Source: an uncultured Acinetobacter sp.
Lineage (GTDB): Bacteria > Pseudomonadota > Gammaproteobacteria > Pseudomonadales > Moraxellaceae
Direction of reading: 5' to 3'
Length of the DNA stretch: 64,000 nt
Assembly (NCBI RefSeq): GCF_947493735.1
Contig: NZ_CANLSL010000005.1
Span: 62,001-126,000 of the forward strand
In this document: piece after piece, positions 59,306 to 64,000 of the stretch
How positions within the stretch are numbered: position 1 is the stretch's first letter
How the letters are laid out: each line of letters starts with the position of its first letter
The notes under the pieces: model-generated
What the model was told of the DNA's origin: nothing
Database searches by the model: none
The model's input: the letters and a program-made list of their open reading frames with translations, nothing else
Program-made: the position numbers and the translations under genes

Positions 59306-60280
59306 ATGAGTCGCGCCATCTCGCATATTGATACCTTTCAAGGGCTGATCTTAGCTCTACAAAACTTTTGGGCAGAACAAGGCTGTGTCGTCCTGCAACC
59401 CTACGATTTAGAAATGGGCGCTGGCACATTCCACACTGCAACCTTCTTGCGTGCACTCGGTCCTGAAACATGGAATGCAGCCTACGTACAGCCTTCACGC
59501 CGTCCGAAAGATGGCCGTTATGGCGAAAATCCAAACCGTTTACAGCACTATTATCAGTTCCAAGTAGTACTCAAGCCAAACCCGAGCAATATCCAACAAC
59601 TGTATTTGGACTCACTCAAAGCCATCGGTATCGACACTTTGACCCATGATGTACGTTTTGTTGAAGACAACTGGGAATCTCCAACACTCGGCGCATGGGG
59701 CTTAGGTTGGGAAGTGTGGCTAAACGGCATGGAAGTGACGCAGTTCACCTACTTCCAACAAGTCGGTGGTGTCGAATGCTACCCTGTGACTGGCGAAATC
59801 ACTTATGGTCTTGAGCGTCTTGCGATGTATTTGCAAGGGGTTGATTCGGTTTATGATTTGGTCTGGACCAAAGGTCAATTCGGTACAGTGACCTATGGCG
59901 ATGTGTTCCATCAAAATGAAGTCGAACAATCAACCTATAACTTTGAACAAGCGCCAGTGGATAAATTATTTGAACTGTTTGATTTTCATGAATCTGAATC
60001 AAACCGTTTGATGCAGGCTGAGTTACCACTACCTGCCTATGAGCAAGTGGTCAAAGCATCACATACCTTTAACTTGCTCGATGCACGTGGCGCAATCTCT
60101 GTCACTGAACGTCAGCGTTATATTCTCCGTGTTCGTACTTTGGCACGTGCCATTGCACAAAGCTATGTACAATCACGTGCAAAACTCGGCTTCCCAATGG
60201 CTGAACCACATTTACGTGATGAAGTCTTGGCGCAGTTAAAAGCACAAGCTGAAGCTGAAAAAGCGAAGGAGAAGAACTAA
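59306..60280 (+). CDS. glyQ: glycyl-tRNA synthetase alpha subunit
   Basis: [44 protein letters not shown]. Confidence 0.95.
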
Positions 60281-62349
60281 TGCAAAAGCACACTGTATTA
60301 TTTGAATTAGGCTGTGAAGAACTGCCACCAAAGAGCTTAAAAACGCTACGTGATGCCTTGAAGAGTGAAGTCGAAAAAGGCTTAAAAGATGCAGGACTTG
60401 GTTTTAACAGCATTGATGCCTATGCTGCGCCACGTCGTTTGGCATTGAAAATCAACCAAATCGAAGCACAGCAAGCCGATAGCCAAAAACGCTTTGATGG
60501 CCCTGCAGTACAAGCAGCGTATGATGCCGAAGGCAAACCAACCAAAGCGCTTGAAGGCTTCTTGCGTGGGCAAGGCATCACTGCCGATCAAGTATCGACC
60601 TTCAATGCAGGAAAAGTTGAAAAAGTTTGCTATTTCAAAGACATCAAAGGTCAAAGCCTTGATGCGCTTTTGCCAAATATTTTGCAAACAGCACTCGATA
60701 ATCTACCGATTGCCAAGCGCATGCGCTCAGCGGCAAGTCGTACCGAATTTGTCCGTCCTGTGCAGTGGGTGGTTTTGCTCAAAGATGCGAAAATTATTGA
60801 AGCAACTATTCAAGACATTCAGACCAATAATCAAACTTTTGGGCATCGTTTCCATGCGCCACAGGCGATTACACTTGCTCATGCCAATGATTATCTCGAT
60901 GCGCTGCGTAGTGCCAAAGTGATTGCGGACTTTGAAGAACGTCAAGCAATGATTGACAGCCAAGTCAAAGCCCTTGCCGATGAAGTAAATGCGATTGCCA
61001 TCGTTCCTGCGGATTTACGTGATGAAGTGACGGCATTGGTTGAACTTCCTGTTGCACTTCGTGCCAGTTTTGAAGAGCGTTATTTGGCTGTCCCACAAGA
61101 AGCGCTGATCACCACCATGCAGGACAATCAAAAGTATTTCTGCTTGGTCGATAGTCATAACAAACTACAACCGTATTTCATTACCGTATCGAATATTGAA
61201 TCGAAAGATCCAACCCAGATCATTGAAGGTAATGAAAAAGTGGTGCGCCCACGTTTATCTGATGCGGAATTTTTCTTCCTACAAGATCAAAAGCAACCAC
61301 TTGCGAGTCGTAAAGACAAGCTGAAAAATATGGTGTTCCAAGCTCAGCTCGGCACACTGTGGGAAAAAACTGAACGTGTCGCTAAGCTCTGTGTGGCACT
61401 CTGTCAATTCACAGGTGCATCGCCACTCGATGCGGAAAAAGCCGCATTTCTTTCAAAATGCGATTTAACTTCTGAGCTCGTCGGTGAATTCCCAGAACTG
61501 CAAGGCATTGCAGGAACCTATTATGCTCGCCTTGAAGGTGAAAATGATGAAGTTGCGGATGCACTGGGTGAGCAATATTTACCGAAGTTTGCAGGGGATG
61601 AATTACCGCAATCTAAAACAGGTACTACCCTTGCCCTTGCCGATCGCATGGTGACTTTGGTGGGTATTTTTGGTATCGGTCAAGCGCCAACGGGTTCAAA
61701 AGATCCATTTGCACTGCGTCGTTCTGCGATTGGCATTCTGCGCTTAATCATTGAAAATGAACTGGATATTAGCCTAGAAAACTTGGTTAATCTTACGCTT
61801 GCTGGCTATGGCGATGTGATCAAAGATCATGACAAAACCCGTGCTGATGCAGTGGCTTTCTTGGAAGGTCGCTACCGTGCCAAATACGAAGATCAAGGCG
61901 TCGATGTAGATGTGATCCAAGCGGTACAAGCCCTTTCGCCGAAGTCACCACTTGATTTTGACCAACGTATCAAAGCCGTAAACCATTTCCGTACTTTAAA
62001 TGAAGCCAGCGCATTGGCTGCAGCCAATAAGCGTGTGGCAAATATCTTGTCAAAAGAAACGGTTACTGAAAATAGAGTGAATGAAGCCACGTTAGTTGAG
62101 TCTGCAGAAAAAGACCTTTATCAAACGCTGAAAACTTTGACTGCTGAAGTTCAACCATTACTCAATAATCGTAACTACACTGAAGCCTTGTCAAAGCTTG
62201 CTGCACTTCGCACACCGATCGACGCATTCTTTGACAATGTCATGGTGATGGCAGATGATCCAGTGCAGAAAGCCAATCGTTTGGCGCTATTAGCACAGCT
62301 TCGTGGATTATTCTTGAGTGTGGCAGATATTTCGGTATTGCAAAATTAA
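60280..62349 (+). CDS. glyS: glycyl-tRNA synthetase beta subunit
   Basis: [15 protein letters not shown]...; ATG overlaps glyQ stop. Confidence 0.95.
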
Positions 62350-62375
62350 TCATTCATTTTATTGAAATAATAAAT

Positions 62376-62408
62376 AAACCCTGCTATTAAATGAGTGGGG
62401 TTTTTTAT
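62376..62408. terminator. terminator between glyS and convergent helicase gene
   Basis: aaaccctgctattaaatgagtggggttttttatt. Confidence 0.55.
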
Positions 62409-63502
62409 TATTCATAAACCACAAATTTATCAGCATATTGCTCTAAACTTTTATCATCAACAATAATCCCTAAACTGAGTTTTGGTCGTGTCAGCCCTAC
62501 ATAGAATTTAGATCGTGTTGCATCGGCTAATTTATGTTTAGAGTCAATTAACCACTTCAACATATCTTTAGTTGGATACAACAATACACGATCTATTGTT
62601 AATCCTTTAGCTACCCCCATATTCATACAAGGAAAATTTGGATTTATTTTAGTAGCTGTAGTTAGGCGCAATTGAGTAGGTCGATAATCACTCAAATACT
62701 TATCTATTTTTCTTCTAGGAACAATGAATAAGCCTAAATGTCTATCATCTTCAATGCAACAAACACACGGTTCTGTTGCGGTAAATGACTGATAAAGTAG
62801 GGAAGATAGTTCACAAATAATTTTTTCGTTCCTATGTGAATACTGTAAAGTTGTTTCATCTAGATCACATAGTTTTTGCCAATATTTAGAATAAAATTCT
62901 TTAACGCCACCTTTATTATAAGGCTTATATTTTGATAAATTATTAGTAGAATAAGTACATTGTCTAGGATCGCCAACTAAAAGAACATTTTCAACTGACT
63001 TTAAAATATTAGTAACAATATCAAAATCATACCCTGACAGATCTTGAACTTCATCAATATAAATATGTTTATAAACCCTAGATAACCTATCAAAAATTAA
63101 CTCAGGGCTATTCTCATGTGTTTTTGCAATAATTTTAGAAATTTTATCGGAGAAAATTTTCCAATCCTTTGTAAAATAGTGCGCAAAACTACTTTCTTTA
63201 GTTCTCAGTGCGGATTGTCCACCATCTATATACATAAATCCAATTTTTAATTTGTGTAAACTCTTTGCTAGCACACACTGATAAGGTCTAAAGCAATCAT
63301 TAAGTAGAAAATTAAACCAAGTCTTGATTTCTATATTTGATGGCAAAAACCCATACTTTTTAATAATTTTTCTCTTTATTTCTTCAGTATTTTCAATAGT
63401 AAACGTCGTAATTAGCACTTTTTCATCATTAGCATTATGTGCCTGACCTATCAAGTAAGTAGTTTTACCTGCCCCTGCTGCTGCAATCATTAACTTTTTC
63501 AT
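62408..63502 (-). CDS. UvrD/Rep-like (GajB-like) superfamily 1 helicase, short form
   Basis: motif I AAAGAGKTTYL; motif II IYIDEVQDL; motif III LLVGDPRQCTYSTN; FYVGLTRPKLSLGI. Confidence 0.8.
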   Translation of the reverse strand: MKKLMIAAAGAGKTTYLIGQAHNANDEKVLITTFTIENTEEIKRKIIKKYGFLPSNIEIKTWFNFLLNDCFRPYQCVLAKSLHKLKIGFMYIDGGQSALRTKESSFAHYFTKDWKIFSDKISKIIAKTHENSPELIFDRLSRVYKHIYIDEVQDLSGYDFDIVTNILKSVENVLLVGDPRQCTYSTNNLSKYKPYNKGGVKEFYSKYWQKLCDLDETTLQYSHRNEKIICELSSLLYQSFTATEPCVCCIEDDRHLGLFIVPRRKIDKYLSDYRPTQLRLTTATKINPNFPCMNMGVAKGLTIDRVLLYPTKDMLKWLIDSKHKLADATRSKFYVGLTRPKLSLGIIVDDKSLEQYADKFVVYE

Positions 63503-63999
63503 GATTTACACCATTCAACGATGTCTTTAATATACTTTGGATACTCTAAAACCTCATCAGATTCAAATAGTTTCAATGCCCAATCTGTTTTTTGATTTAT
63601 CATATACTTGATGATTTGTTCTGCTGTTGTATAAGTCGATGGATAGTCAATTACTTTTTTAAATTTTAATAAATCTTCTTTATTAACATCAAAAAATTGT
63701 GGCTCTAAAGTGTGTAGTTCATTCCTATTATCAGCGCTGATACAAATATGCTCTTTTTTTAAGTAATCTTCATATTTTTTAAATATATTATTCGTGTAAT
63801 CTCCATCATTATCTGTAATCACTGCAACATTTTTATTTAAAAGATTAGCGATATCTAAAAACCGCTTAAATGCCAAACTTTGCACACTGATAACGTCAAT
63901 ACCATCCTCTATAGGTAATTTATTCTCATTTTCTTGCATGTAAAGTTTTTGAAAGACCAGCTCGTCTGATGGACCTTCAACTAGTACGGCTTTTTTAGC
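63499..63999 (-). CDS. OLD-family/GajA-like protein, C-terminal TOPRIM domain (N-terminus outside window)
   Basis: frame continues to the window edge: AKKAVLVEGPSDELVFQKLYMQENEN...VAVITDNDGDYTNNIFKKYEDYLKK (TOPRIM E and DxD motifs); ATGA overlap with the helicase gene. Confidence 0.75.
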   Translation of the reverse strand, partial: AKKAVLVEGPSDELVFQKLYMQENENKLPIEDGIDVISVQSLAFKRFLDIANLLNKNVAVITDNDGDYTNNIFKKYEDYLKKEHICISADNRNELHTLEPQFFDVNKEDLLKFKKVIDYPSTYTTAEQIIKYMINQKTDWALKLFESDEVLEYPKYIKDIVEWCKS

Positions 64000-64000
64000 T

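Follow-up and report, generated by a model that had tools for sequence, protein, structure and literature searches.

Two bacterial Gabija systems, those of Bacillus cereus and Pseudomonas aeruginosa PA14, provide the background against which the locus described here is best read. The helicase-like subunit of the former, BcGajB, is built from four subdomains, 1A (residues 1 to 72 and 156 to 222), 1B (73 to 155), 2A (223 to 313 and 417 to 494), and 2B (314 to 416), and no unwinding by it was seen (PMC10681800). In the Bacillus complex, 1A and 1B of GajB bind GajA, while the C-terminal region from residue 224 to 416 does not bind and is disordered (PMC10822852; PMC10781630). Rotation of the 2B subdomain gates the helicases UvrD and Rep (PMC10781630). 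As for what sets the systems off, nucleotide depletion has been reported as the trigger of B. cereus Gabija (PMC8136825; summarized in PMC12407980) and linear DNA ends free of RecBCD as that of PA14 Gabija, which depends on proteins that block RecBCD (PMC12407980).

The window, the whole stretch of 64,000 nucleotides that was analyzed, comprises bases 62001 to 126000 of contig C5 (128,545 bases) of the 2.6-Mb genome G000, and the sequence beyond it was also read. A first-pass annotation of the window had described a compact helicase of 364 aa with SF1 motifs, lying just past a convergent glyS and overlapping by ATGA an upstream gene that carried the TOPRIM signatures VLVEGPSDELV and ITDNDGDY and was cut by the window edge, and had proposed that the pair was Gabija-like. 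The open reading frame coordinates (see the table) confirm this layout, with the ATGA shared by the gajA stop and the gajB start and a gap of 58 nt between gajB and glyS; both signatures are present in the upstream gene, and all SF1A motifs were found in the gajB product. The contig extends 2.5 kb beyond the window, and there gajA is complete, beginning with a GTG start behind a GGAG ribosome-binding-like sequence. The annotation had made its proposal depend on an ATPase domain lying upstream of the TOPRIM region, and reading the gene past the window edge revealed one.

Table. Features of the gajA-gajB pair and its glyS border (window positions unless a contig is named)
Feature	Position	Strand	Remarks
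glyS	60280-62349	+	Conserved left border of the hotspot; open reading frame
Terminator-like inverted repeat	62366-62412		Common to glyS and gajB, which are convergent; forms the cassette's left edge
gajB	62408-63502	-	364 aa; UvrD-type SF1A helicase without 2B subdomain; PADLOC, Pfam, AlphaFold model
GajB motif VI (YVGLTR)	62486-62503	-	Y334, V335, T338, R339 invariant
GajB motif V (GVAKG)	62603-62617	-	G296, K299, G300 invariant; 75 residues after motif IV
GajB motif II, DEVQD box	63041-63055	-	D150, E151, Q153, D154 invariant in 55 sequences
GajB motif I, Walker A (AAAGAGKT)	63461-63484	-	K13, T14 invariant in 55 sequences
gajA, visible C-terminal part (TOPRIM)	63499-64000	-	PADLOC GajA and Pfam
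GajA lysine K514, near C terminus	63589-63591	-	Invariant in 55 sequences
GajA TOPRIM DxD, D440 and D442 (TDNDGD)	63805-63813	-	Invariant in 55 sequences
GajA TOPRIM glutamate E385 (VLVEGPSDE)	63976-63978	-	Invariant in 55 GajA sequences
gajA, full gene	C5:125499-127130 (upper end, window position 65130)	-	543 aa

Both proteins match Gabija profiles essentially over their full lengths, GajA with PADLOC PDLC00102 (E = 4.8e-207) and GajB with PDLC00148 (profile length 369; E = 1.5e-115), and these whole-protein matches exclude chance; together with the adjacent, overlapping SF1A helicase gene, they bear out the proposed assignment. In Pfam, GajA gave AAA_15, AAA_21, and OLD-like_TOPRIM above the cutoff (the last with E = 1.5e-14), and GajB gave UvrD-helicase (E = 2e-14). 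The ATPase domain of GajA is N terminal and of the ABC/SMC type, with GDNEAGKST as Walker A, LILIEEPENH as Walker B, and STHSS as the H-loop, and the OLD-type TOPRIM domain (VEGPSDE, TDNDGD) lies C terminal to it in the same 543-aa protein. Active-site conservation was assessed in 55 aligned GajA-GajB pairs from many phyla. The full set of ABC/SMC-type features (Walker A and B, signature, and H-loop) is present in GajA, and these motifs are invariant across the 55 homologues wherever sequence is present, as are G386 and E476. The feature set of a class 2 OLD TOPRIM domain (E, G, and DxD) is likewise present; by motif, E385 matches E379 of B. cereus GajA (PMC10781630), and K514 is a candidate catalytic lysine.

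The AlphaFold model of GajA (pLDDT 83.3, with low confidence at residues 180 to 290 or so) was used for a fold search of the PDB, and its top four matches were B. cereus Gabija GajA chains (8u7i, 8sm3, and 8x5i), with E values from 3.5e-20 to 4.8e-18, 16 to 18% identity, and moderate TM-scores of 0.5 to 0.56. Weaker matches were to Thermus OLD, retron Eco8, SMC, and PtuA. Neither a profile of the 55 GajA sequences, at E ≤ 0.001, nor phmmer reached B. cereus GajA in the PDB. This branch is thus distant from the solved GajA, and the anti-phage function that we infer for it is transferred from the fold, the partner, and the motifs.

The GajB model was of higher confidence (pLDDT 91.7) and matched the folds of UvrD, PcrA, Rep, viral SF1 helicases, and GajB (8tk1 and 8sm3). 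The DExQD box, motifs III to VI, and the Walker lysines are invariant in the 55 pairs where sequence is present. The four-subdomain layout of the characterized GajB was not matched, as the model contains no inserted 2B domain. Motifs IV and V are separated by 75 residues in this protein and by 72 to 80 in all 55 sequences, and only 16 to 21 residues lie between a conserved QLR and motif V in all 55. Judged from these spacings and the predicted structure, the whole 2B subdomain is absent from this GajB and from its 54 relatives, which explains why GajB is short. The 1A and 1B parts that bind GajA in Bacillus remain, so that the portions needed for assembly appear to be kept. We treat the loss of 2B as a trait of the subtype rather than as a failed defining feature of Gabija, since PADLOC accepts the short GajB and since what defines the family is the pairing of an OLD nuclease with a UvrD-like helicase. 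No description of the short subtype or of its missing 2B subdomain was found in the literature searched.

To see how widely the short form occurs, six short GajB sequences were aligned and the alignment was searched against 85,462 species genomes. This yielded 271 relatives, and the 80 best of them were analyzed. A GajB frame was found in 79 of these best 80, and 77 of the 79 loci had GajA on the strand of GajB, almost always immediately upstream of it and mostly overlapping it or a few bases away; median lengths were 544 aa for GajA and 382 aa for GajB. Hosts among the best 80 of the 271 included proteobacteria, Bacteroidota, Firmicutes, Desulfobacterota, and, from the archaea, Methanococcoides. 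Plasmids carry the short GajB type as well (66 of them, 28 predicted to be conjugative), and it has low-identity matches in two Listeria phage records. Close copies of the pair are sporadic (4 of 176 genomes in the genus and 4 of 369 in the class). Since the GajB model of PADLOC has no more than 369 positions, the short subtype has already been modeled there, and the pair belongs to this known and widespread short-GajB subtype of Gabija. The suspicion in the first-pass annotation that the compact helicase might mark a divergent subtype therefore holds as to the short form, with 2B absent in 55 sequences, but the form is one that PADLOC models and many phyla share and not a local oddity. A divergent short Gabija was also seen away from glyS in G040 (L019:8931-11700), with a GajA 29 to 30% identical and an in-frame stop after 233 codons of gajB.

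The surroundings of the pair were compared in a genus sample of 176 genomes, one per species. GlyS, or the 3' end of its gene, was found in 175 of the 176, the glyS 3' flank was taken in 125, and four recurrent downstream gene families that served as anchors were found in 118. The interval from glyS to the first anchor was occupied, that is, held at least one open reading frame of at least 150 aa, in 92 of these 118 genomes, with cargo of 61 families, while nine nearby conserved control intervals had 0 to 40 occupied sites and 0 to 7 families. A transporter/LysR pair that looks lineage specific formed part of the cargo of 21 genomes, and without this pair 85 of the 118 were still occupied. Among genome pairs with anchors and with an identity of 88% or more across the 3' end of glyS, 567 differed in cargo and 15 agreed, the pairs not being independent of one another. 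Conserved flanks thus enclose a cargo that varies far more than neighboring intervals do, and the glyS 3' interval is a cassette-exchange defense hotspot of Acinetobacter.

The borders of the exchanged segment are sharp, as comparison of glyS 3' flanks in relatives, a check that the first-pass annotation had suggested, made clear. In pairs with different cargo, homology mostly ended 0 to 6 nt or about 45 to 75 nt past the end of the glyS coding sequence and mostly resumed 40 to 110 nt before the anchor open reading frame. Between G000 and its sister species G086, DNA identity is 95% up to the glyS terminator, ending at about position 62406, and is restored, at 90%, starting some 110 nt ahead of the next gene; in the segment that separates the two points, G000 carries the 2.84-kb Gabija cassette and G086 a gene for a 327-aa protein of unknown family. 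In G102, another near relative, the cargo is a gene resembling a Pycsar cyclase. No tRNA was found in the stretch L002, no integrase-like open reading frame between glyS and the next gene, and no flanking direct repeats. Accordingly, of the earlier suggestion of an integration site for defense genes after glyS, the part concerning defense genes stands, given the known defense cargo and the occupancy of 92 of 118 genomes, but "exchange site" fits better than "integration site." With no such elements seen, homologous recombination within the flanks, which are conserved, is the likely means of entry, possibly following natural transformation. GajA and GajB are 78% and 70% alike between G093 and G109, in which GlyS is 91% alike, and 81% and 77% alike between G000 and G093. 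These identities do not fit a simple vertical codivergence of the pair with glyS; a neighboring gene also diverges fast, and the comparison is not decisive. At the end of the contig (L002:8000-8546), about 100 nt behind the gene for a 181-aa secreted protein, the sequence resembles an rRNA operon, with a 5S gene and part of a 23S gene, so that, from the look of the sequence, the hotspot in the G000 lineage adjoins a putative rrn operon.

Several recognized defense systems occupy the glyS site in different genomes. Gabija was found there in three genomes, and a fourth, that of A. tianfuensis, is divided between two contig ends, on one of which it lies next to glyS and on the other next to the anchor. 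A type I-A retron with PtuA and an HNH protein occurs at L100 and three more sites, Avs4 at L074 (L074:6866-11638; 1,590 aa, full length, alone at the site, PADLOC E = 0, 2,200 bits) and L073, Pycsar PycC with PycTM at L110 and L111, an OLD/AriA-like ATPase at L058 and two more, the DRT UG17 reverse transcriptase at L081 and L159, and PDC-S11 at L167. PADLOC matches at E ≤ 1e-10 were obtained for 12 of the 61 families in the cargo, compared with no more than 3 of 55 in the control intervals, an enrichment of modest significance (one-sided Fisher P = 0.02). Other cargo recurs and gave no PADLOC match where scanned: c38 (L052:10398-11330) in seven genomes, c39 (L022:466-1449) in six, and, in five genomes each, c43 (L075:10898-11830), with a weak HEPN match, c44 (L062:642-1478), with an OST-HTH/LOTUS domain, and c46 with c40 (L122:567-1558), a DUF6036 nucleotidyltransferase and a small partner that look like a toxin-antitoxin pair. 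These families are candidates for unknown defense genes. In G017 (L146), the glyS site is filled by two successive copies of a four-gene cluster resembling a chaperone-usher fimbria. No mention of glyS as a defense site was found in the literature searched, outside of which lay the Acinetobacter hotspot survey of Yi et al. (2025); the site may already figure in the list of that survey, which is cited in PMC12421847.

We considered whether the pair could be something other than a working Gabija system. A different OLD-helicase system with a trigger of its own, for example, one that senses without a GajA-GajB complex, would make the Gabija label an artifact of the profile library; in its favor are the failure of sequence profiles to match GajA with the B. 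cereus protein, the lack of 2B in GajB, and the pooling in PADLOC of many divergent models as GajA or GajB. We regard this as unlikely, however, because the best fold match in the PDB is a Gabija GajA, because the gene order, the overlap, the pair of domains, and the active-site residues are those of Gabija, and because, in Bacillus, the region that includes the missing 2B takes no part in binding GajA.

Rad50, RecF, and SMC proteins share the domains seen here, as would be expected if the pair served housekeeping DNA repair, a RecF/RecN-like ATPase-nuclease acting with a helicase, rather than defense. The scarcity of close copies in the genus and the class, the alternation of the pair with recognized defense systems at a single site, and the presence of this GajB type on plasmids make that reading very improbable. 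It is also very improbable that the operon is a decayed, nonfunctional Gabija relic, even though it is shorter than the characterized systems and its divergent relative in G040 has the interrupted gajB: neither frame is interrupted, no catalytic residue has been lost, and the short length is common to 55 pairs across phyla, which marks it as a trait of the subtype and not as decay.

In all likelihood, then, the locus is a complete Gabija operon of the compact subtype, in which GajB is docked on GajA and couples NTP-dependent sensing to a nuclease, and which constitutes one of many interchangeable cassettes of the glyS site. By homology, GajA would be a class 2 OLD protein whose ABC/SMC-type ATPase tetramerizes and so assembles the complex and whose TOPRIM domain makes nicks or cuts in DNA by means of two metals. 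GajB, in which only the 1A, 1B, and 2A parts of an SF1A ATPase are left, would most likely dock on the ATPase domain of GajA through 1A and 1B, as in Bacillus Gabija, and would link an NTP-dependent detection of DNA ends or single strands with the GajA nuclease. The target would be invading phage or plasmid DNA, with cleavage set off when an infection shows itself in DNA ends, single strands, or nucleotide levels. With 2B absent, gating by its rotation would be impossible in the short GajB. In Rep that lacks 2B, self-inhibition is relieved. The short GajB is thus probably either an ungated, constitutively competent ATPase or translocase or a purely ATP-driven sensor, and the lack of observed unwinding even for BcGajB favors the role of sensor. 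A broader reading, to which we give about even chances, is that short-form Gabija makes up a branch with a function of its own, a 2B-less SF1A core there controlling an OLD nuclease, and that the glyS interval is a general one-cassette exchange site of Acinetobacter with about 50 unannotated cargo families, several undiscovered defense systems among them.

GajB may not be a helicase at all, no unwinding by BcGajB having been seen (PMC10681800), and a widespread subtype that naturally lacks 2B shows which of its parts are essential; the short GajB also offers a smaller protein for work on structure and mechanism. The glyS site is a simple, well-bounded place in which to mine new defense genes in a genus among whose members are important pathogens considered as targets of phage therapy, and it allows the exchange of defense modules without a dedicated mobile element to be studied.

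The glyS site resembles the defense hotspots of E. coli (PMC10121019) and those of Acinetobacter (Yi et al. 2025, doi 10.1038/s42003-025-07459-4, as cited in PMC12421847) in having exchangeable cargo at a fixed chromosomal position; it differs from these published hotspots in that its borders lie at the glyS stop codon or terminator and in that no integrase or repeats were seen. Class 1 OLD (Thermus scotoductus OLD, 6p74), retron Eco8, PARIS AriA, and Septu PtuA share a related ABC-ATPase core, in some cases with TOPRIM, but these systems have no UvrD helicase partner or have other effector domains, and they are weaker matches. P. aeruginosa PA14 Gabija (PMC12407980) is, by its description, of the same two-protein class, and its trigger of RecBCD-free linear ends is plausible here, but it rides on the conjugative island PAPI-1, whereas the pair described here is a bare chromosomal cassette (PMC12407980). 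Gabija of B. cereus VD045 (GajA, 578 aa; GajB, 494 aa; PDB 8sm3, 8u7i, 8x5i, and 8tk1) has the same two-gene operon, domains, and active-site motifs; compared with it, the present GajA is 16 to 17% identical, and the present GajB is 130 aa shorter, lacks 2B (103 aa in BcGajB), and has a somewhat smaller 1A/1B half. The PADLOC models PDLC00102 for GajA (532 positions) and PDLC00148 and PDLC00140 for GajB (365 to 369 positions) are matched over nearly their full lengths and represent the same subtype, from which this pair shows no notable difference.
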